Shown here piece by piece: positions 41,155 through 52,477 of a stretch of DNA of 64,000 nt; the stretch's first letter is position 1, and each line of letters begins with the position of its first letter. The stretch comes from Breoghania sp. L-A4 (GTDB taxonomy: Bacteria; Pseudomonadota; Alphaproteobacteria; Rhizobiales; Stappiaceae). The stretch lies in assembly GCF_003432385.1 (NCBI RefSeq), contig NZ_CP031841.1, forward strand, positions 4,944,501-5,008,500, given 5' to 3'. The notes under the pieces were generated by a model that worked only from the letters and a program-made list of their open reading frames with translations, was not told where the DNA came from and ran no database searches. Position numbers and translations under genes: made by a program.

Positions 41155-41481
41155 CGGGTTCACTGTGCTCCATGCGGCGCGCCGCCTGGCGGGCGAAGGC
41201 GCGGGGCAAGTTCCGCACACGCCGCCCCTCCTTCGAGACGCGCGCGGTGCCAGTCCCCTCTCCCATTGGGAGAGGGTTAGGGTGAGGGGATCAGATGCCT
41301 GAGAAATACTGAGGGATCACAACCCCTTGCATGTTGTTTCCAGCGCAAATCGGCGATGATTTGTGCTGGCCGCGTGCGGATGGCCATCCGCACGCGGCCG
41401 GATCGGCGGGGCCGCGATCCCCTTGGTCGAGACCCGTGGGTGAGCCTGGTCCGCCGATCCCTTTGCGCCTGTTCTGAACAG
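41155..41481. repeat. Intergenic region with a perfect 9-bp hairpin left of the IS110 element
   Basis: About 330 bases. CCCTCTCCC / GGGAGAGGG (41256-41276, 3-base spacer) is a perfect palindrome and is followed by GGGTTAGGGTGAGGGG. A near copy lies to the right of the IS at 42546-42566. Just upstream, CTTCGAGACGCGCG is shared with the extragenic repeats at 46.2-46.4 kb. No gene is supported here. Confidence 0.6.
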
Positions 41482-42473
41482 ATGATTGGGAGCCAGACCC
41501 GCATGCAAGGCCAGATCCAGCCGCAAACACCCGGCGCACAGCCAGTCTACGTCGGCATCGACGTCTGTAAAGACCATCTCGACATCCACCTGCATCCCCT
41601 CGGGCACGGCCTGAGGCTCGCCAACGACCGAGACGGCGTGAGCCGGCTGAAGCGGCTGCTGGCCCGACACGACGTCGCGCGCGTCGTGCTGGAGCCGACG
41701 GCCAGCTACCATCGGCTCGTCCACCGCTCGCTGGCCCAGGCCGGCTGGCCGGTGGCGGTCGTCAACCCGCTGCGCGCGCGGCTGTTCGCCGAAGTCCTCG
41801 GCAGCCGCGCCAAGACCGACCGCGTCGACGCGAAAATGCTGGCGATCCTCGGCGCGACGCTGGCCCCCCAGGCCACGCCGCCGGCGCCCGAAGCGCTCGA
41901 GGAACTGCGGGAGCTGGTGCATGCGCGCGCCGCCGCGACCCAGGAGCGCACCGCGCTCGCCAACCGGCTGACGGCCAGCCACGTCGCCGTCCTCAAGGCC
42001 GAGCTCAGGCGGCTGCTGGCCGGCCTCGACAGGCACATCGCGCGGCTGGCCCGCGAGATCGGGCGCCGCATCACCGACGATCCGGGGCTGGCGCGGCGCC
42101 AGGCCATCCTCACCTCGATCCCCGGCATCGGCGCCACCGTCGCCGCCGTGCTGATCGCCGACATGTCCGAGCTCGGCCAGCTCGACCGCCACGCCTGCGC
42201 CAGCCTGGCCGGCGTCGCCCCCTCGCCAACGACAGCGGCGACATCCGGGGGCCGCGCCACATCAGGGGCGGCCGCGCCATGCCCCGCCGCGCGCTCTATT
42301 GGGCAGCGCTGTCCGCCGCCAGGTACAATCCCGACCTCGCCGCCTTCTACAAACGCCTGCGCGACAACGCCAAAAAACCCAAGGTCGCCCTCACCGCCGT
42401 CATGCGAAAGCTCATCATCCTCGCCAACACCCTGCTCAAGGAGGACAGACTGTGGACCCCAAAATACACTTGA
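41482..42473 (+). mobile_element. IS110-family insertion sequence, degenerate
   Basis: Coordinates cover the transposase; true element ends are not defined because IS110 elements usually lack terminal inverted repeats and target duplications. The region between palindromes at 41256-41276 and 42546-42566 is the outer limit. IS110 elements often target palindromic repeats, which fits this setting. GC and codon use are like the host, so the element is not recent foreign DNA by composition alone. Confidence 0.75.
41482..42473 (+). pseudogene. IS110-family transposase, one frameshift
   Basis: A DEDD-type transposase of ~330 residues, starting at ATG 41482 or 41503. The N-terminal DEDD catalytic domain shows YVGIDVCKDHLDIHL, LEPTASYHR and SRAKTDRVDAKML. 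The C-terminal transposase_20 domain begins TSIPGIGATVAAVLIADM. After ~residue 246 (SLAGVAP, CCCCC at 42218-42222) the frame shifts by one, and IRGPRHIRGGRAMPRRALY to LLKEDRLWTPKYT continues in the other frame. Restoring one base makes the protein full length. Confidence 0.85.
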
Positions 42474-42545
42474 CCTGAAACACAGATGCTCACCCGGCGC
42501 GGAGCCTGTCCTTGGGCTGGCCACAGGCCAGACCCGAGGGCGCCG

Positions 42546-42566
42546 ACCTCTCCCCATGGGAGAGGT
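42546..42566. repeat. 21-bp palindrome right of the IS110 element
   Basis: ACCTCTCCC / GGGAGAGGT with a 3-base spacer. The inner bases match the palindrome at 41256-41276 except at the spacer and ends. Confidence 0.75.
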
Positions 42567-42656
42567 GTCTGAAGCCCCCGCAGGTTCACAAACGGTTCTC
42601 CTGCCATCAAGCGAGAGAAACGACTCTTGTTCCTATCCTTCTTCCAGGCAAGCCCC

Positions 42657-44291
42657 TCAGCCCTCGGCTTCCGCCTTGGCCTCGTCGCGCAGGATGCGGC
42701 GGATAACCTTGCCGGTGGTGGTCATCGGGAGGCTATCGACGAAGGCGATCTCGCGCGGATACTCGTGCGCGGCCAGCCTCTCGCGCACGTAGCTCTGGAT
42801 CTCGCGCTCCAGCGCCTCGGAGCGCGCATCCGGGTCTTTGAGCACGATGAAGGCCTTGACGATTTCCGTGCGCAGCTTGTCCGGCTTGCCGATGGCGGCG
42901 GCCAGCGCCACGGACGGGTGCGACAGCAGGCAATCCTCGATCTCGCCCGGACCGATGCGGTAGCCGGCCGAGGTGATCACGTCGTCGTCGCGGCCGACGA
43001 AATGCACGTAGCCGTCGCCGTCCATCAGCCCCTGGTCGCCGGTCAGCATCCAGTCGCCGACGAACTTGTCGCGCGTCGCCTCCGGCCGCTTCCAGTATTC
43101 CAGGAACATCACCGGATCGGGCCGCCTGACCGCGATCTGCCCTTCGGTCTCCGCCTCCACCACGTTGCCCTCAGCATCGATGATCGCGACCTCATGACCC
43201 GGCACCGGCTTGCCGATGGCGCCGGCGCGCGACACCCCGGCCGCCGCACAGGACGACAGCACCAGGTTGCATTCGGTCTGGCCGTAGAACTCGTTGACGG
43301 TGATGCCCAGCGCCTCGCGCGCCCACTCGAAGGTCTCGCGGCCCAGCGACTCGCCGCCCGAGCCGATGGTGCGCAGCTTGAGATCATACTTGGCGCGCGG
43401 GTTCTCCATCGTCCGCAGCATCTTCAGCGCCGTGGGCGGAATGAAGGTGTTGCGCACGCCGCAGTCGGCCATCAGCTCGAAGGCGCGCTCGGGATCGAAT
43501 TTCTCCGCCGGTCCCGCGACAACGGGCACGCCGAAGTGCAAGGATGGCAGCAGCACGTTCAAGAGCCCGCCGGCCCAGGCCCAGTCCGCCGGGGTCCAGA
43601 ACAGATCATTGGGCTGCGGGAAGAATTCATGCGGCATCTGCACGCCGGGCAGATGGCCCAGCAGCACCCGGTGGCCGTGCAGCGCGCCCTTGGGCGGCCC
43701 CGTCGTCCCCGAGGTGTAGATCATCAGCGCGGGATCGTCGGGCACGCTGTCGAACGTCTCGAAGGCGTCGCGCGCGCGCTCCATCAGATCCTCGAGACCA
43801 AGGCTGCCCTCGGTCGGCCCGCCGATGGTGATGACGTGGCGCAGGTTCGGCAGCTCGCCGCGGATCTCGGAAATCTTTTCCGCGCCGGCGGCGGTGGTCA
43901 CCAGCACCTTGGCGTCGCAATTGTCCAGCCGGTAGCGCAGCGCGTCGACGCCGAACAGCGAGGCCAGCGGCACGGCGATGGCGCCGAGCTTGTAGACCGC
44001 GATATGCGAAAACGCCGTCTGCGGCGATTGCGGCAGCATCAGCGCCACCCGGTCCGCGCGCCCGACGCCGAGGCCGCGCAGCACGTTGGCGAGCCGGTTG
44101 GCCGCGCGGCGCAGGTCCTCGTAGCTGTGGGTCTCGTGCCGGCCGTCATGCAGCCTGTGGATCAGCGCGATCCGGTCGGGCTCGGCCGCCGCCCAGCGGT
44201 CGCAGACGTCGGCGGCGATGTTGTAGCGCGCGGGGATGTTCCAGCGGAAACCGGCGACGAGCCCGGCATAGTCGGATGCGGTGGGCAGCAT
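42657..44291 (-). CDS. AMP-binding acyl-CoA synthetase
   Basis: A 544-residue adenylate-forming enzyme that activates a carboxylic acid with ATP and CoA. The P-loop-like motif is MIYTSGTTGPPKGALHGH (~195), the adenylation motifs are FYGQTE (~320) and WMLTGDQGLMDGDGYVHFVGRDDD (~410), and the C-terminal lysine lies in MTTTGKVIRRILRDEA (~530). This subtype resembles medium-chain or benzoate-type acyl-CoA ligases and acyl-CoA synthetases of the AcsM group. The substrate cannot be fixed by sequence. It may serve the aromatic module 2 kb away, but it is separated by Fic and repeats. Confidence 0.88.
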   Translation of the reverse strand: MLPTASDYAGLVAGFRWNIPARYNIAADVCDRWAAAEPDRIALIHRLHDGRHETHSYEDLRRAANRLANVLRGLGVGRADRVALMLPQSPQTAFSHIAVYKLGAIAVPLASLFGVDALRYRLDNCDAKVLVTTAAGAEKISEIRGELPNLRHVITIGGPTEGSLGLEDLMERARDAFETFDSVPDDPALMIYTSGTTGPPKGALHGHRVLLGHLPGVQMPHEFFPQPNDLFWTPADWAWAGGLLNVLLPSLHFGVPVVAGPAEKFDPERAFELMADCGVRNTFIPPTALKMLRTMENPRAKYDLKLRTIGSGGESLGRETFEWAREALGITVNEFYGQTECNLVLSSCAAAGVSRAGAIGKPVPGHEVAIIDAEGNVVEAETEGQIAVRRPDPVMFLEYWKRPEATRDKFVGDWMLTGDQGLMDGDGYVHFVGRDDDVITSAGYRIGPGEIEDCLLSHPSVALAAAIGKPDKLRTEIVKAFIVLKDPDARSEALEREIQSYVRERLAAHEYPREIAFVDSLPMTTTGKVIRRILRDEAKAEAEG

Positions 44292-44731
44292 GAACGGCCT
44301 TCTCTGTGTCGCATTGTGCGCCGCAACTTAACCAGATGCACAGGGAAGAGGCAATTGGGGAGGGAAGCAAAGGGCGTGGGGCGGTTTCAGCTGGCAACCT
44401 TAATAACAACCACGCGCGATCCTTCACGAGGTTCAGTGCCTCGTCGCGAAACGGCCGTTGGCAGGGAGAAAAATCTCAACAGCTGGATTGTTGTCAAACG
44501 GCATTTGAAATTTTGGTGCCGAGTTTGTGGGCCATAAGACGGAAAAAACCGTTCACAACACCTTTTGAAGCACTTACGACTGCTGCAAAATTCGTTGTGT
44601 TACGAAATTGGACCCAAATGTCGCACGACATAGTTTGTGTCGGAAAATTCTCCCACAACAGAGTTTGTGTTGCAAAATTTAAGAAATTTATTACACAAAT
44701 AAGCAGCCACGATCAAAATAGGAGCTGCGCA
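44292..44731. promoter_or_regulatory. Fic upstream region with three phased repeat motifs
   Basis: A 440-base AT-rich region between the divergent acyl-CoA synthetase and Fic genes. Three related motifs precede the Fic gene: CGTTGTGTTACGAAATT (~44593-44609), AGTTTGTGTCGGAAAATT (44632-44649) and AGTTTGTGTTGCAAAATT (44662-44679). Their TGTGT cores start 40 and 30 bases apart, near whole helical turns. A further GTTTGTGG core lies near 44523. They could be operator sites, for example for an autoregulating Fic protein. No clear -35/-10 was identified. Confidence 0.6.
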
Positions 44732-45865
44732 ATGCCGGTCAATATCGAATCCTATGACCTCAGCAACCTAGTCGACTATCACTATGGGCGTTTTCCTCCT
44801 AGCCAGCTCGATCTTGCTCGCTTGATAGAACCCCTAGCAAAGGCACAAGACGCGATCTCACGCTACGATCAAATGCTCCTGTCACTTCCAAACAGCGAGC
44901 TTCTCTTGGCCCCGCTTCGCCAAAACGAAGCAGTTATCTCTTCTCGGATGGAGGGGACAATTTCAACCGTCGATGAGGTCATGATCTACGAGGCGGAAAG
45001 CGAAGACGATGGGACATCACGGCCCGCACGGGATGATGTCGTTGAGGTGGCTCTCTACAGCCATGTTTTACGCCGCGCCCAAACCGCTGTTGCCAAAGGT
45101 GATCCAATTAACGAGGGGCTTATCAAGAACGCGCATCGTGTTCTTTTAAGCTTTGGCCGCGGTGCAAGCAAATCTCCAGGTCAATATAAATCAGAACAAA
45201 ACTATGTCGGCGACGACAGAAGAAAAATAATTTATTTCAAGCCGATCAGCCCCCTGCATCTTCAACCCGCCATGCAGGACCTCTTGACGTTCATTGAGAC
45301 GTCCACAATGCTACATCTGTTTAAGGTTGCTATTGCGCATGTCGAATTCGAAGCACTACATCCGTTCAACGATGGGAATGGACGTATCGGCCGGCTGCTC
45401 ATAACGTTGTTGCTGTGGAAATTCGGCCTAATTCACAAACCCCATTTCTACGTCAGTGCGTTTTTCGAGACCCACAAGGAAGCATACATCGAATTGATGC
45501 GTGCTGTCTCGCGCGATGATGACTGGACCGCTTGGACGGCATTCTTCCTGGAAGCCATCGCCGAGCAGGCCGAGAGCAATCTTCAAACAGCGAAGAAAAT
45601 CACGACCCTTTACGACGACATGAAAGAACCGTTTCGGGAAATGTCCGGTTCGAAATGGCACATCGCGGCCCAAGACAGCATATTTGAGAATCCGATTTTC
45701 AAGAACAGTCATCTGATCAAGCGCTCGGGCATGCCCAAGCACGTGGCCACTCGGATCACAAAGCTTTTGCACGAAGGCGGCTTGTTGCGAGAAATCCGTC
45801 CCGCGAGCGGCCGCAGGGGCGCACTCTACATGTTCGAGCCGCTGATGGAAATCGTTAGAGCTTGA
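44732..45865 (+). CDS. Fic family protein with winged-helix C-terminus
   Basis: A 377-residue class II Fic protein. A Fic_N-type segment covers ~1-95 with the inhibitory motif S-x-x-x-E-G (SSRMEG, residues 70-75). The catalytic motif HPFNDGNGRIGR lies at 210-221. The C-terminal ~70 residues form a probable winged helix (LIKRSGMPKHVATRITKLL). Fic enzymes AMPylate or otherwise modify proteins, or act as toxins; the target is unknown. A GGAG site sits 7 bases before the ATG. Codon and base use are clearly more AT-rich than the neighbours, which indicates transfer. Confidence 0.9.
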   Translation: MPVNIESYDLSNLVDYHYGRFPPSQLDLARLIEPLAKAQDAISRYDQMLLSLPNSELLLAPLRQNEAVISSRMEGTISTVDEVMIYEAESEDDGTSRPARDDVVEVALYSHVLRRAQTAVAKGDPINEGLIKNAHRVLLSFGRGASKSPGQYKSEQNYVGDDRRKIIYFKPISPLHLQPAMQDLLTFIETSTMLHLFKVAIAHVEFEALHPFNDGNGRIGRLLITLLLWKFGLIHKPHFYVSAFFETHKEAYIELMRAVSRDDDWTAWTAFFLEAIAEQAESNLQTAKKITTLYDDMKEPFREMSGSKWHIAAQDSIFENPIFKNSHLIKRSGMPKHVATRITKLLHEGGLLREIRPASGRRGALYMFEPLMEIVRA

Positions 45866-46671: not shown

Positions 46672-48611
46672 TCACGCCACGGCCGTCTCCGGAAGCTTCG
46701 CGCCGGCGGGCAGCATGAAGCCGTCGAAGAAGCGCGCGAGCACATCAAAGGCGTCGATCGGCAGCACGTGGGCGACATACTGGTCCGGCCGGACGATCAG
46801 CAGGCAGCCTTCCGCGCGGTCGATGCCGCGCAACTCGAAAATGTCGCGGTCGTTTTTCAAATCCGGGCAGAGCATCTTTTCATAGTCGATGAGTCCCAGC
46901 CGTCCCTTGCGCGGCAGCAGGAAGGCCGGCATGGCCTCGAGCGCCAGCGCGTGCCGGTCCTGCTGGAAGACCGCGCGCACGTCGATGACACTGTCGATAT
47001 CCGCGTCTTTCGCGGTGTACCGGCGCACGGGCGAGTCCGGCGCCTCATCGAGAAAGCGGCACAGCGCGCGGATCGCCGAGTTTTCGGCCGCCGGGTCCTC
47101 GTCGGGGCTGAAGGCATAGAGATGCCAGCGCGTGTCGGCGCTCACCGTGTGGCCCAGCTCGATGGTCTTGGCGTCGGCCAGCCGGACGACGGGCGCGGAA
47201 TGAAACCGCGTGCCGATCTCAAATCCTTGCGCCAGCGCTTGCCAGCGCGCCTCGCCGGTCAGCACGGAAGGGCGGTAGGTCACCGACACGCCGGCGGTCG
47301 AGCGGCCGTGCTCGATGAAATAGCGCTGGAATTTCGGCGCCGCGCCGTCCGCGCCGTCGCCGGCTTCCGGCGGCTCGCTCATGATCCGCGACCACTCCCG
47401 GTCGAAATCGATCAGATCGCTCGCCACCGCCTGGCGCTCGGCGGAATAGCTGTGCAGGATTTCTGGCGGGCAGCGCCCCTGCAGCACGGAGACCAGCTTC
47501 CAGCCCAGATTGAAGGCGTCGCCCATCGACACGTTCATCCCTGCCCGGCCTTCGGGCTGTGGGTATGGCAGGCGTCGCCGGCGATGAACACATGCGGCAG
47601 GCGGGCATCGATATCGTCCTGCGGCACGTCGTCGAACTTGTCGGTCAGGCGCTGGCCGATCTCGTAGACCGACCACCACACCACCTCCTGCACCGACAGC
47701 GCATAGGGGCGAAAAATCCGCTGGGCGGCGGCGATCAGCCGGTCGATGGTGATGTTGCGGCTCGCCACCCGTTCGTCCGCGCCGAGCTTGTCGAGCTCGA
47801 TGTAGAGGCGCGTGAGATAGCCGCCCTCGCGCGGGATGATGATGATGTTGCCCTCGCCGGCCGACTGGATCAGCGTCTTGCAGCGGATGTCGGGAAAATC
47901 CGTGGTCGCCAGCACGTCCATGACGCCCCAGGCCTGATTGGCCGAATCGCCCACAAGCTCGCGGCCGATGGCCGTGCGCACGGCGCTGCGCGCACCGTCG
48001 CAGCCGACCACATAGCGCGCACGCACGGTGAGCCGCTCGCCCGCGCGGCCCGGATCCACCCGCTCGAGCGTCGCGGTCACCGGATGCGCGCCGCCCGCCG
48101 GATCCACGCTCAGTTCAACGAGTTGCAGCGAATAGTCGGGCTCCAGCCGCGTGGGCGAGCGCCGCATGACGTCGAGATACATGTCGTGCACGCGCGCCTG
48201 GTTGAGGATCGTGTGTGGCATCTCTGACAACCCGTCCTCCACGTCCTGGATGCGACCGTTGCGGATGATATGGTCGGGCTGTTCCGGATCCGGCTTCCAG
48301 AAGGTCGTCTCGTTGACCCAGTAGCCCTGCTTCATCACCGTGTCGGCGAAGCCGAAGGCGTTGAACATTTCCATCGACCGGCAGGAGATTCCGTCGGCCT
48401 GGCCCTTTTCCATCGGCCCCGCGCGGCGCTCGACGATCCGCGTGGTGATGTCGGGGAAGGCGGAAAGCTGGGCTGCCAGCGTCAGTCCCGCGGGGCCCGA
48501 GCCGACGATCAGCACATCCACCGCATCGGGGAGGTCCGCGCCGTCACGGCCGGGCGCTGCGTCGGAGACTTCCGGATCGCCGGGGCGGAACCCGTTCAGG
48601 TGATACTGCAT
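46672..48611 (-). CDS. FAD-dependent aromatic hydroxylase, MobA/phenol 2-monooxygenase-like (one frameshift)
   Basis: A flavin monooxygenase of ~646 residues once one base is restored at 47539-47541. Before the break the FAD motif LIVGSGPAGLTLAA, the VGCDGARSAVR segment and FIAGDACHTHSPKAGQG are seen; after it, in the other frame, MNVSMGDAFNLGWKLV and a C-terminal thioredoxin-like dimer domain follow. This is the group of MobA (3-hydroxybenzoate 4-hydroxylase) and phenol 2-monooxygenase. The start has a GGGAGG site at 48611. The substrate is inferred as a hydroxylated aromatic acid or phenol. A MarR regulator is divergent. Confidence 0.83.
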
Positions 48612-48638
48612 GGTCGACCTCCCATGGGACAAAATTAA

Positions 48639-48693
48639 TAAGTTGACTTACTTTATGCGGCGTGGCGTCGAGGGCGTCAATAAAAAAGTATGT
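48639..48693 (-). promoter_or_regulatory. Promoter and operator of the monooxygenase gene, shared with the TRAP operon
   Basis: Read leftward: a TTGACG -35 (complement of 48675-48680), a CATAAA hexamer 17 bases on, and the inverted repeat TAAGTtgACTTA at 48639-48650 directly downstream. The motifs TAAGTTGAC, GTCAAT (+37) and AAAAGTATGT (+45) on the plus strand occur with identical spacing at 52277-52331, upstream of the TRAP operon. The inverted repeat suits binding by the dimeric MarR regulator encoded next to it. Confidence 0.7.
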
Positions 48694-48764
48694 GTCCTTA
48701 CTGAATCTGAGTATGTTTGGGACATCCGCCGGCGAGTTCGGCTTCGGACCAATCACGAGGTTTC

Positions 48765-49199
48765 ATGAGCGCGAGCTCCAGAATGCCGGGACATCTGATC
48801 CGGCGATTGCATCAGGTCTCCACGCATGTGTTCGTGCAGCGGGTGCGCGAGGCCGGGTTCGACCTGACGCCGGTGCAATTCGCCGCGCTGGACGCGCTGC
48901 GCCACAGCCCCGGCATCGACCAGGCGGGCCTGGCGCAGGCCATCGGCAAGGACCGCGCGACGGTGGGCGCCGTGGCCGACCGGCTGGAGCAGAAGGGGCT
49001 TGTGAGCCGCACCGTCAGCCAACGCGACAAGCGCGCGCGCGAACTGGTCATCACGAACGAAGGCGCGGCGATCGTCGCGACGCTTCTTCCCATTGTGGAA
49101 AAGCTTCAAAAGGAGATCCTGCCCGGCCTCGATGAGGCCGAATACCAGCAGTTCATCGCCCTGGCCGCGAAGGCCGCCAACGTCACAATCGAGGATTGA
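48765..49199 (+). CDS. MarR family transcriptional regulator
   Basis: A 144-residue winged-helix regulator. The DNA-binding helices run through LTPVQFAALDALRHSPGID, then DRATVGAVADRLEQKGLVSR and the wing QRDKRARELVIT. It is divergent from the flavin monooxygenase, the same arrangement as the MarR-type MobR next to MobA in Comamonas. It probably represses both the hydroxylase and the TRAP transporter and releases DNA on binding an aromatic ligand. GAGG lies 4 bases before the ATG at 48765. Confidence 0.9.
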   Translation: MSASSRMPGHLIRRLHQVSTHVFVQRVREAGFDLTPVQFAALDALRHSPGIDQAGLAQAIGKDRATVGAVADRLEQKGLVSRTVSQRDKRARELVITNEGAAIVATLLPIVEKLQKEILPGLDEAEYQQFIALAAKAANVTIED

Positions 49200-49205
49200 G
49201 CACGC

Positions 49206-50510
49206 CTAGCGGAACATCGCCTGCGGGATCACCAGCGCAATCTGCGGAAACAGCACGATCAGCAGCAGGCATACCGCCATCGCGCACCAGAACGGCAGCA
49301 CGCCGCGAAAGATCGTCGCCATGGGCACATCCCGGGCGACGCTCTTGACCACGAAGACGTTCAGCCCCACCGGCGGCGTGATCATACCCATCTCGATCAC
49401 AATCACCGCGATCACGCCGAACCAGATCGGATCGAATCCGACCGCAATGATAATCGGAAAGAAGATCGGGATCGTCACGACCAGCATTGCCAGCCCGTCC
49501 ATGAACATCCCCAGCACCAGATAGGCGAGCACGACCAGCAGCAGCACACCGTAGGGCCCGAGCCCGGCGGACATCATTGCCTCGCCGAGGGTTGCCGGCA
49601 GTTGGGTCAGCGCGAGGAAGGGATTGAGTACGCTGGCGCCGATGATGATGAGATAGAGCATCGCGGTCGTGCGCACGGTGTCGGCGACGGCCTTGCCGGC
49701 GAGCGCCCGGTCGAGCTTTCCCGCCGCCACCGCCATGATGATCACCAGCCCCGCGCCCACGCCCGCGGCCTCCACCGGCGTGAACACGCCGAGATAGATG
49801 CCGCCGATCGAGACGATGATCACGGTGATCAGCGGCAGAGCGCGCGCGAGCGCCAGAAAGCGCTCAGGCAGCGGCACGCCGGGTCCACGCGGTCCGGCGG
49901 CGGGGTCGACGAGGGTCACGAGCGTGATGGCGGCCATGAAGCACGCGGTCAGCAAAAGCCCCGGCAGAATGCCCGCCATGAACAGTTGGCCGATGCTTTC
50001 CTCCGTCAGGATCGCGTAGATCACGAAGCCGGTCGACGGCGGGATCAGAAAGCCCAGGGTGCCACCCGCCGCGACCGCGCCGGTGGCCAGGGCGTCCGAA
50101 TAGCCGAACCGCTTCATTTCCGGCAGCGCCACCCGCCCGATGGTCACCGCGGTGGCGACCGAGGAGCCGCTGACGGCGGCAAACGCCGCGCAGCCGACGA
50201 TCGACGCCGAGGCGAGGCCGCCGCGCAGCCATCCGACCCAGGCAAAGGCGGCCTCGTAGAGGCGACGGCTGAAGCCCGCGGCCGAGGCGATGTTGCCCAT
50301 CAGGATGAACAGCGGGACCACGGTCAGCGAGTAATTCGCGGTCGCGGAAAACGTCTCGGTGACCAGCAGCGCGTTGGCGGAGCGACTGCCGTTCAGAATC
50401 AGAGTGCCGAAGTAGCCGGCCGCCAGCATGGCCATGCCCACCGGCATGCGCAGGATCATCAGGACGAACATCGCCCCCAGACCGCCGAGCCCGATCGCGA
50501 AATCACTCAT
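49206..50510 (-). CDS. dctM: TRAP transporter large permease (DctM)
   Basis: A 434-residue DctM-type permease with ~12-13 helices, the sodium-coupled transport core of a TRAP system. GCAAFAAVSGSSVATAVTIGRVALPEMKRFGY (spread over the first half) and MITPPVGLNVFVVKS (~380) are the typical scaffold motifs. It overlaps the small permease gene by eight bases and forms the operon dctP-dctQ-dctM in the leftward direction. Confidence 0.94.
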   Translation of the reverse strand: MSDFAIGLGGLGAMFVLMILRMPVGMAMLAAGYFGTLILNGSRSANALLVTETFSATANYSLTVVPLFILMGNIASAAGFSRRLYEAAFAWVGWLRGGLASASIVGCAAFAAVSGSSVATAVTIGRVALPEMKRFGYSDALATGAVAAGGTLGFLIPPSTGFVIYAILTEESIGQLFMAGILPGLLLTACFMAAITLVTLVDPAAGPRGPGVPLPERFLALARALPLITVIIVSIGGIYLGVFTPVEAAGVGAGLVIIMAVAAGKLDRALAGKAVADTVRTTAMLYLIIIGASVLNPFLALTQLPATLGEAMMSAGLGPYGVLLLVVLAYLVLGMFMDGLAMLVVTIPIFFPIIIAVGFDPIWFGVIAVIVIEMGMITPPVGLNVFVVKSVARDVPMATIFRGVLPFWCAMAVCLLLIVLFPQIALVIPQAMFR

Positions 50511-51027
50511 TCCGGCTCACTCCGGCACGTAGGACATCGGCGAGCTGCAGCGCGAGGACAAGCGCGTAAAGCGCCGCGCCGAGCGCCAGAAGCCCGTAGA
50601 ACGGCCACAGCGGAATGGCGAGCATATTTGTGGCGTCGCCGAATTCGGCGGCGTCGCGCAGCTTGGCCCAGGTGCGCCAGGCAAGCAGCGACAGCAGGTA
50701 GATCGAGATCCCGCGCGCCAGGATGTCGCCCAGGAATCGTCCGGTCGCGCCGATGGCGTTGTCGAACACATCGACGCGCACATGGTCTTCGCGCTGCGCC
50801 GCCGACGGCATCGCCAGCATCACAAGCGCGACGGAAACCAGTTCGATGATCTCGTTGCCACCGAGAATGGGGGCGGAAAAGACATAGCGCATGATGACCC
50901 CGGCGAAGGTCGCGATCAGCAGGATCGCCAGCGCGATCGAGGAAAGCAGGGTCAGGGCGCGCACGGCCCATTCGACGGGTGTCGAATGGGCCAGACCGCG
51001 CGAGGGTCGCGCGGTCTCGTCAGTCAT
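50503..51027 (-). CDS. dctQ: TRAP transporter small permease (DctQ)
   Basis: A 174-residue four-helix membrane protein with the DctQ pattern: a first helix SIALAILLIATFAGVIMRYVFSAP, then GGNEIIELVSVALVMLAMPSAAQREDHVRVD, each split across helix 1 and 2. It pairs with DctM and docks the periplasmic receptor. It overlaps dctP and dctM by eight bases each, so all three are tightly coupled. Confidence 0.92.
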   Translation of the reverse strand: MTDETARPSRGLAHSTPVEWAVRALTLLSSIALAILLIATFAGVIMRYVFSAPILGGNEIIELVSVALVMLAMPSAAQREDHVRVDVFDNAIGATGRFLGDILARGISIYLLSLLAWRTWAKLRDAAEFGDATNMLAIPLWPFYGLLALGAALYALVLALQLADVLRAGVSRNE

Positions 51028-52009
51028 CTTTCAGAGCGCTGACGTAGGCCGAGGCCTCGAGCCCGTTCGCATCGGCCTCGGCGATCACGGTTTCCACCAC
51101 CGAAGCGGAGGCCGCGTTGAATTTCTCGGCTTCCTCAGGCGCCAGCGTGATCAGCTCCTTGCCGTCGGTTGCCACGAAATCGGCGATCGCCTTATCAGCG
51201 ATGCGCAACCACGCCGCGTTGCCGTCGAGCGCCGCCTGGCGGCCCGCATCGAGAACGACCTTCTGCTGCGCCTCGATCAGGTCCTTGAAACCGTCGCGAT
51301 TCATGATCAGGAAGAAGCTGGAGATCGTGGTGTCCATGCCCTGGGTGATGTATTTCGTGACTTCCTTCAGCCGGAACGCGCCAAGGGTGGTGGCGTCGAT
51401 CATGGCGCCGTCGATCACCCCGGTCTGCATGGCGTTGTAGATCGCCGGGGCGGGCATCGACACGGGCGCGGCACCCCAGGCTTCGATTACCAGCCCTGCG
51501 TTGCGCGAGGGAACCCGGATCTTGAGCCCCTTGAGATCGTCGAGGCTGCGCACCGGCTTGTCCGCCATGAACAGCAGATTGGGGGCGTTGTTCCAAAGTC
51601 CCAACAGCACCACGCGGCGGTATTCGCCCGAGAGCTTGTCGAGATTGGCCAGCACCCTGGCGGTGCCGGTCTCGGCATCGATGACGCCGGGAAGTTCGCT
51701 CAGAAGAGTTTTCGGGAAGGTTGACGCCGTGTAGCCGGGCAGGCTGAAGACGATGTCGGCGACGCCGTCGACCGCGCGGTTGTATTGCTCCGCCGGTCCA
51801 GGACCGAGCTCGCCGCCCATGAAGAGGCTTACGGTGACCGCGCCGTTGGTCGCCTCGGAAATGGTCTTGGCGAAGGGCTTGTACGTCGTATCGACAACGA
51901 AATGGGTGGGCGGCTGGAAATCGGCCAGCTTCAACTCGGTCGCCTGCGCCATCGGCGCGACCAGCATCAGTGTGGCGGTCAGCCCGCCAGTCAGAGTCTT
52001 CACAATCAT
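51020..52009 (-). CDS. dctP: TRAP transporter substrate-binding protein (DctP)
   Basis: A ~329-residue periplasmic receptor with a signal peptide ending near AQA-TE. The family ARG/FAD-like motif region is seen in SLDDLKGLKIRVPSRNAG (~150), with the conserved arginine in KIRVPS, and INAMQTGVIDGA-like IYNAMQTGVIDGAMID (~170). It likely binds a carboxylate; co-regulation with a hydroxylase suggests an aromatic acid. GGGAGGAG lies 8 bases before the ATG at 52009, so I prefer it to the ATG at 52015. Confidence 0.92.
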   Translation of the reverse strand: MIVKTLTGGLTATLMLVAPMAQATELKLADFQPPTHFVVDTTYKPFAKTISEATNGAVTVSLFMGGELGPGPAEQYNRAVDGVADIVFSLPGYTASTFPKTLLSELPGVIDAETGTARVLANLDKLSGEYRRVVLLGLWNNAPNLLFMADKPVRSLDDLKGLKIRVPSRNAGLVIEAWGAAPVSMPAPAIYNAMQTGVIDGAMIDATTLGAFRLKEVTKYITQGMDTTISSFFLIMNRDGFKDLIEAQQKVVLDAGRQAALDGNAAWLRIADKAIADFVATDGKELITLAPEEAEKFNAASASVVETVIAEADANGLEASAYVSALKDD

Positions 52010-52015
52010 CCTCAT

Positions 52016-52477
52016 CTCCTCCCGTATCCTTTGTTCACCGGGTCCCGCGCGAGGGCCCCGCTCCTTCGTGCGCGCTCCACAATGTGCAATGGACGCAGCC
52101 TTCCGATCGGCGGTCTGTGAAAAAGGCCGCTAACCGGTGCGCCGCCTCCAGCCCTGCGAAAAGGGATCCCGCGACAGCGGCCGTCCGACGCACATCGCAT
52201 CTCGATCGTCTCGCATCCGCCCGTTTCCCCGGAGGCCATGTCGGGAACGCGCTGCCCGCTCATGCGACAAATTTGATAAGTTGACATATCATAAGCATGG
52301 AATTCGGCCGGCGGTCAATTCAAAAGTATGTACAGATATCAATTTGCGTGACGCGGCACAGGCCCGGCGTCACGGGCGTATCCGGCCACACGGAGACTGT
52401 CGACGCGGCGGATTGCCGGCGGTCGTGCCCTGCCCTTCGGGCGGGATGGGTTTCCCGATTGCCGTTAAGGAGGTCTT
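52016..52477. other. Leader and intergenic region between dctP and the CAP gene
   Basis: About 460 bases. Beyond the promoter/operator at 52275-52331 I see no gene. The 52020-52270 part would be the transcribed leader of the TRAP operon; no riboswitch pattern was recognised. Confidence 0.5.
52275..52331 (-). promoter_or_regulatory. TRAP operon promoter and operator, copy of the monooxygenase element
   Basis: Read leftward: TTGACC (complement of 52313-52318), then a CTTATG/TATGAT hexamer 17-19 bases on, and the imperfect inverted repeat GATAAGTtgACATATC at 52275-52290. Its three motifs share both sequence and spacing (0, +37, +45) with 48639-48693. It lies ~265 bases before dctP, which implies a long leader. 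Confidence 0.7.

Follow-up and report, generated by a model that had tools for sequence, protein, structure and literature searches.

PcaV of Streptomyces and HosA are MarR regulators of hydroxybenzoate catabolism, and they bind hydroxybenzoates other than 3-hydroxybenzoate. MobR of Comamonas testosteroni KH122-3s belongs to the MarR family and regulates the gene for 3-hydroxybenzoate hydroxylase (Yoshida et al. 2007, cited in PMC4737184), and its binding of 3-hydroxybenzoate is described in a passage of PMC4737184. On the uptake side, passages of PMC3610893 present TarPQM of Rhodopseudomonas palustris, a TRAP transporter with a binding protein for aromatic acids, encoded in a catabolic cluster together with the MarR regulator CouR, which responds to p-coumaroyl-CoA. 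Here, we describe elements of both kinds in the window, by which we mean the whole 64-kb stretch of DNA analysed. Sequence comparison gives good support to a small regulon in which uptake and the first hydroxylation of an aromatic acid would be placed under an adjacent MobR-like repressor.

The hydroxylase, regulator, and transporter genes

The leftward gene divergent from marR encodes a mobA-like 3-hydroxybenzoate 4-hydroxylase (Table 1). Its N-terminal part alone scores above the cut-off of NF006144 and matches PDB 2dkh at E 3e-160. Two overlapping open frames, 47535-48632 and 46672-47679, make up the gene, and at their junction (47535-47560) the DNA has one base fewer than in all six relatives compared, which breaks the reading frame. 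This frameshift could represent either a broken gene or a sequencing error in this assembly. The genome holds two protocatechuate 3,4-dioxygenase beta-subunit genes above the family cut-off, and the MobA product could therefore be used.

The nearest PDB relatives of the MarR protein by sequence are HosA and PcaV, with matches of only 53-80 bits. Its GHLIRRL segment, in which the arginine pair R13 and R14 is invariant in 21/21 rows, aligns with GHLARRL of PcaV, where an arginine contacts the ligand. No other close MarR relative was found in the same genome at E 1e-20 or better. In the tree, the window protein clusters with the MarR of a Devosia MAG (80% identity, support 90) rather than with those of the Stappiaceae rows; because few branches of the tree are supported, this would be only a hint of a horizontal origin of the locus. 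All homologues found in a search of plasmids were less than 60% identical.

For the binding protein DctP, the best sequence matches were 7nr2, 4p56, 5im2, 5i5p, 5iga, and 7nsw, TarP_Sse being among them. According to the PDB titles, 7nr2 and 7nsw are TarP with coumarate, and 5i5p and 5iga are "specific for aromatic acid ligands." The structural ranking of DctP, made with a middling AlphaFold model (pLDDT 67), mixes aromatic binders with binders of other ligands at Z 21-24.

By eye, two further open frames were noted in the window, one at 44306-45865 with a Fic-like HPFNDGNGRIGR motif and one at 41356-42792 resembling an IS110-type transposase, perhaps frameshifted.

Table 1. Positions of genes, predicted operators, and promoter elements in the window
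Feature	Coordinates	Strand	Sequence	Basis or remark
mobA-like 3-hydroxybenzoate 4-hydroxylase gene	46672..48611	-		NF006144, PDB 2dkh; split by one-base frameshift near 47540
O1, mobA promoter	48637..48652		AATAAGTTGACTTACT	21.9 bits, 0 mismatches to RRTAWGTNNACWTAYY
Possible -10, mobA promoter	48652..48657	-	CATAAA	17 nt after -35; weak; read from sequence
-35-like, leftward mobA promoter	48675..48680	-	TTGACG	Read from sequence; spacer TCAA conserved in relatives
O2, between mobA and marR	48687..48702		AGTATGTGTCCTTACT	15.4 bits, 1 mismatch to RRTAWGTNNACWTAYY
marR (MobR-like), 144 aa, divergent from mobA	48765..49199	+		Pfam MarR_2 and MarR above cut-off
dctM, large permease; end meets marR end	49206..50510	-		PF06808, TIGR00786
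dctQ, small permease	50503..51027	-		PF04290
dctP, TRAP solute-binding protein	51020..52015	-		PF03480
O1, TRAP promoter	52275..52290		GATAAGTTGACATATC	20.6 bits, 0 mismatches to RRTAWGTNNACWTAYY
Possible -10, TRAP promoter	52288-52293	-	TATGAT	Spacer 19 nt from -35; read from sequence
-35-like, leftward TRAP promoter	52313..52318	-	TTGACC	Read from sequence
O2, TRAP promoter	52325..52340		AGTATGTACAGATATC	20.8 bits, 1 mismatch to RRTAWGTNNACWTAYY

Paired predicted operators in the window and in foreign genomes

The initial annotation had described a three-word element, repeated with equal spacing and orientation at 48639 and 52277, and a MarR gene beside the first copy. Both observations hold: TAAGTTGAC, GTCAAT, and AAAAGTATGT start at 48639/48676/48684 and again at 52277/52314/52322 with identical spacing and orientation, and the adjacent marR matches both Pfam families. 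Within the 64-kb window, searched on both strands, TAAGTTGAC and AAAAGTATGT each occur just twice, while GTCAAT by itself is frequent (8 on the plus strand and 11 on the minus strand). The two 55-column elements are identical at 34/55 positions, a level that is not decisive alone, as 50 of 54.7 million sampled segment pairs reach it. The three words proved to be fragments of a 16-bp palindrome, RRTAWGTNNACWTAYY, present in two copies per promoter, 50 bp apart at both. The single inverted repeat that had been placed just after the -10 gives way to a different unit, namely two full operators flanking the promoter.

Five aligned MarR proteins served as the query in a search for relatives, and the best 80 of the 510 confirmed relatives' loci were kept (1.42 Mb). 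In 68 of these 80, marR and mobA are divergent, with less than 400 bp between the matches. A weight matrix was built from these 68 foreign mobA-marR intergenic regions, with the window left out; the window and three relatives supplied its seed pattern, and the foreign regions alone its counts. Applied to the window, the matrix ranked the four sites of Table 1 first to fourth (21.9, 20.8, 20.6, and 15.4 bits), with the next site at 8.3 bits, a gap of 7 bits.

The best 80 of 510 loci hold 138 sites of at least 13 bits, 120 of them within the mobA-marR intergenic regions, which total 11.7 kb; of these regions, 67/68 have at least one and 52/68 have two or more. Because the matrix was trained on these very regions, the test that counts is made by the 18 sites elsewhere, whose coordinates were read. 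A TRAP dctP follows six of them (one each in L034, L067, L082, and L088, and two in L098). Another eleven are found upstream of a mobA or marR that is arranged differently, and the last, L091:3309, is on the far side of marR. The position of the predicted MarR operators is near-exclusive to mobA, marR, and TRAP genes. The operator module is thus old and is common to Alpha- and Betaproteobacteria.

Pairing is also widespread: 56 of the 68 regions have two sites of at least 10 bits, 27-56 bp apart. The spacings fall into ranges of 30-36, 42-48, and 49-51 bp, plus one at 55 bp, and helical phasing of the pair was dropped from consideration, as they show no single phase. In the window, GTCAA adjoins O2 in the spacer between the operators and reads on the gene strand as TTGAC(G/C), a good -35. 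A -35 followed by a -10 had been assigned to each copy, and the former stood up well, with TCAA found between the paired operators in 44 of the 56 regions against 7.6 expected from shuffled spacers. The -10 did not; it is weak, and a scan with a consensus promoter found no leftward promoter at either the mobA or the TRAP module and did not accept the CATAAA -10. Between the TRAP module and the dctP gene downstream of it there are 260 bp, a greater distance than in L034 and L067.

It is also worth pointing out that eight loci (L009, L011, L012, L014, L015, L017, L020, and L023) have a different palindrome, near TATACTGATnATCAGTATA, upstream of marR. The mobA-linked MarR of these loci belongs to the same family (46-54% identical), so that two operator types occur with the same gene pair.

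A genome-wide scan for the motif, which the initial annotation had proposed, covered 5.03 Mb. RRTAWGTNNACWTAYY occurs within one mismatch at 5 places, and the reversed pattern used as control at 6, so the count itself is unremarkable. What is exceptional is pairing and position, as four of the five places make up the two modules; the remaining one, at 1969892, falls within an open frame. With two mismatches allowed, there were 51 places against 91 for the reversed control, and among the matches listed 26 were scored with the matrix. Open frames were read around the best of the others (3370061, 2417789, 1517466/1517509, and 915483), and no recognisable aromatic genes adjoin them. No further regulon member was found among the matches listed from the one- and two-mismatch scans, and the protocatechuate dioxygenase loci have no operator at one mismatch.

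Control of the TRAP operon in relatives

An orthologous TRAP operon (dctP 66% or more identical) is found in 20 other loci. Gene order varies: it is dctP-dctQ-dctM in the window (49206-52015) and in Hoeflea-like loci, and dctQ-dctM-dctP in Roseibium, Pannonibacter, and others (L026:10304-13255).

An operator of at least 13 bits stands upstream of the orthologous TRAP operon in only 2 of the 20 loci, L034 and L067, and each of these has a single O1, with TCAA about 37-39 bp on. The TRAP module of the window, on the other hand, repeats the mobA module in full, with both operators at the 50-bp spacing. In relatives, a LysR gene of the type seen in L026 stands upstream of the TRAP operon. The L026 gene (13450-14709, minus strand) encodes a 419-aa LysR protein with two HTH_1 matches before the substrate domain and is PcaQ-like, below the cut-off. 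A LysR gene like it occurs in 15 of the 20 loci, none of which has an operator at TRAP; this count takes in L028, where the gene is on the opposite strand, 3.9 kb upstream, and L040, whose LysR is just 38% identical. Of the six rows without this LysR (the window, L034, L043, L062, L067, and L080), the window, L034, and L067 have an operator at TRAP, and L043, L062, and L080 have neither. The mutual exclusion of LysR and operator gives a Fisher exact p of 0.015 over 21 rows with kinship ignored. Counted as independent pairs, of which there is 1 on starred branches and 3 in all, it gives a sign test p of 1, which is not informative.

The genome of the window has its best LysR match (42% identical) at 186996, at a distance from the TRAP operon. 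This locus (L122, 186996-188180) holds a second tandem-type LysR, beside frames that by eye resemble oxalomesaconate-type ring-cleavage genes.

The genes of a different TRAP transporter (dctP 34%) diverge from marR in L082 and L098, with operators in the region that separates the two. In L098 these operators are a pair 50 bp apart, with GTCAA, in front of the nonorthologous TRAP operon. Repressor and TRAP uptake thus appear to be coupled in several arrangements. Judged from the sequences compared, the repressor-TRAP link is lineage-specific. In most relatives this TRAP operon has a LysR gene close by and no operator, so the window may be a case of regulatory takeover. That control of TRAP uptake moved from a pathway activator (LysR) to a substrate-sensing repressor, and did so more than once, is a tentative reading to which we give somewhat less than an even chance; the window would then be a naturally occurring example of a possible switch of regulator at a transporter.

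The proposed switch and its relation to described systems

The earlier idea of one regulon for uptake and hydroxylation gains support from several sides. The operator is present in all but one of the foreign marR-mobA regions, the hydroxylase is a MobA homologue, the binding protein matches TarP and other aromatic-acid binders, and operators precede TRAP genes in L034, L067, L082, L088, and L098. We consider it highly probable that one two-operator module serves both promoters and that the MarR protein represses mobA, the TRAP operon, and itself until an aromatic acid, likely 3-hydroxybenzoate, releases it. The overall mechanism is best read as ordinary repression by MarR dimers at two promoter-flanking operators.

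In the switch that we infer, with respect to binding, repression, autoregulation, inducer, and substrate alike, the two elements would be two copies of one module, each made of two MarR-dimer operators around a leftward promoter. O1 would cover the -10 and start region, and O2 would sit just upstream of the -35. With no inducer present, the MobR-like repressor would bind both modules and keep mobA and the TRAP operon shut, and marR would likely control itself by way of the O2 that lies in the divergent region. The TRAP module has a strong O2 with no divergent gene, and O2 thus probably also serves the leftward promoter and not just marR autoregulation. An aromatic acid, most likely 3-hydroxybenzoate, would release the repressor from both modules, and uptake would be switched on along with the first hydroxylation, which yields protocatechuate.

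The substrate of the hydroxylase, the analogy with MobR, and a gentisate-type neighbour in one relative all point to 3-hydroxybenzoate as the ligand. In that relative (L102, 8134-9884), the same type of MarR has as neighbours a gene resembling gentisate-1,2-dioxygenase, which scores below the family cut-off, and a gene of the fumarylacetoacetate hydrolase family, with an operator upstream of marR and a TRAP operon downstream of it. Such a neighbour is consistent with 3-hydroxybenzoate as a shared signal. Homology does not fix the ligand, because PcaV and HosA bind other hydroxybenzoates.

A transporter with a different cargo is possible, if unlikely. Here the MarR protein would bind the TRAP promoter as proposed, and the transporter would carry another aromatic acid, such as a phenylpropenoid, as part of a broader aromatic intake. 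The nearest solute-binding proteins do include TarP with coumarate and cinnamate, and PMC3610893 calls such systems promiscuous in its title and reports, in the passages concerned, that 4-hydroxybenzoate did not bind RPA1782. The regulator, however, adjoins a 3-hydroxybenzoate hydroxylase homologue in most of the best 80 of 510 loci and a gentisate-type gene in one relative, and both neighbourhoods point back to 3-hydroxybenzoate.

Far less probable is that the TRAP module is a relic of recent copying of the mobA-marR promoter segment and not a working switch. The equal 50-bp spacing and some likeness beyond the operators (TGnGACAAA) would suit a copy, although part of this outer likeness recurs elsewhere as flanks of single operators (AATT/AATTT). 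Moreover, the TRAP module has kept both operators while its spacer diverged, leaving 34/55 identity overall, and its O2 outscores that of mobA (20.8 versus 15.4 bits). Promoter duplication, as such, is a possible origin of the module. Still more doubtful is binding of the TRAP module by another MarR paralogue of the same genome with equal site preference: MarR operators can be alike, and a first look gave 36 candidates among weaker paralogues, but mobA-linked MarR paralogues of the same genus or family, 46-54% identical, use the clearly different palindrome near TATACTGATnATCAGTATA. That two AT-rich promoters in a GC-rich genome look alike by chance is very unlikely, since a matrix of foreign origin ranks the four sites first with a wide gap to the next, even though their overall identity is occasionally reached by sampled segment pairs.

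Taken as a repressor switch shared by mobA and the TRAP operon, the locus would give a precise operator, RRTAWGTNNACWTAYY, usually paired around TTGAC, to a large and little-studied group of MobR-like repressors. MobR-like regulons would therefore be predictable from sequence in Alpha- and Betaproteobacteria. Also, an orphan TRAP transporter gains a likely substrate class and a regulator.

PcaV and HosA provide the nearest solved structures to the window MarR, but their target genes differ. As in the MobR system, a MarR-type gene stands beside a 3-hydroxybenzoate 4-hydroxylase gene, whereas in the window the operator pair also precedes a TRAP operon. In the Comamonadaceae loci (Curvibacter and Hydrogenophaga), the genes diverge as in the window and the operator is the same, but the pair is spaced about 31 bp apart there and 50 bp here. 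With TarPQM, as described in passages of PMC3610893, the window has in common a tripartite transporter with a MarR regulator in a catabolic cluster; a shared twin-operator module, in contrast, is not part of those descriptions. This type of switch is known; within the literature searched, its application to this TRAP transporter seems to be new.
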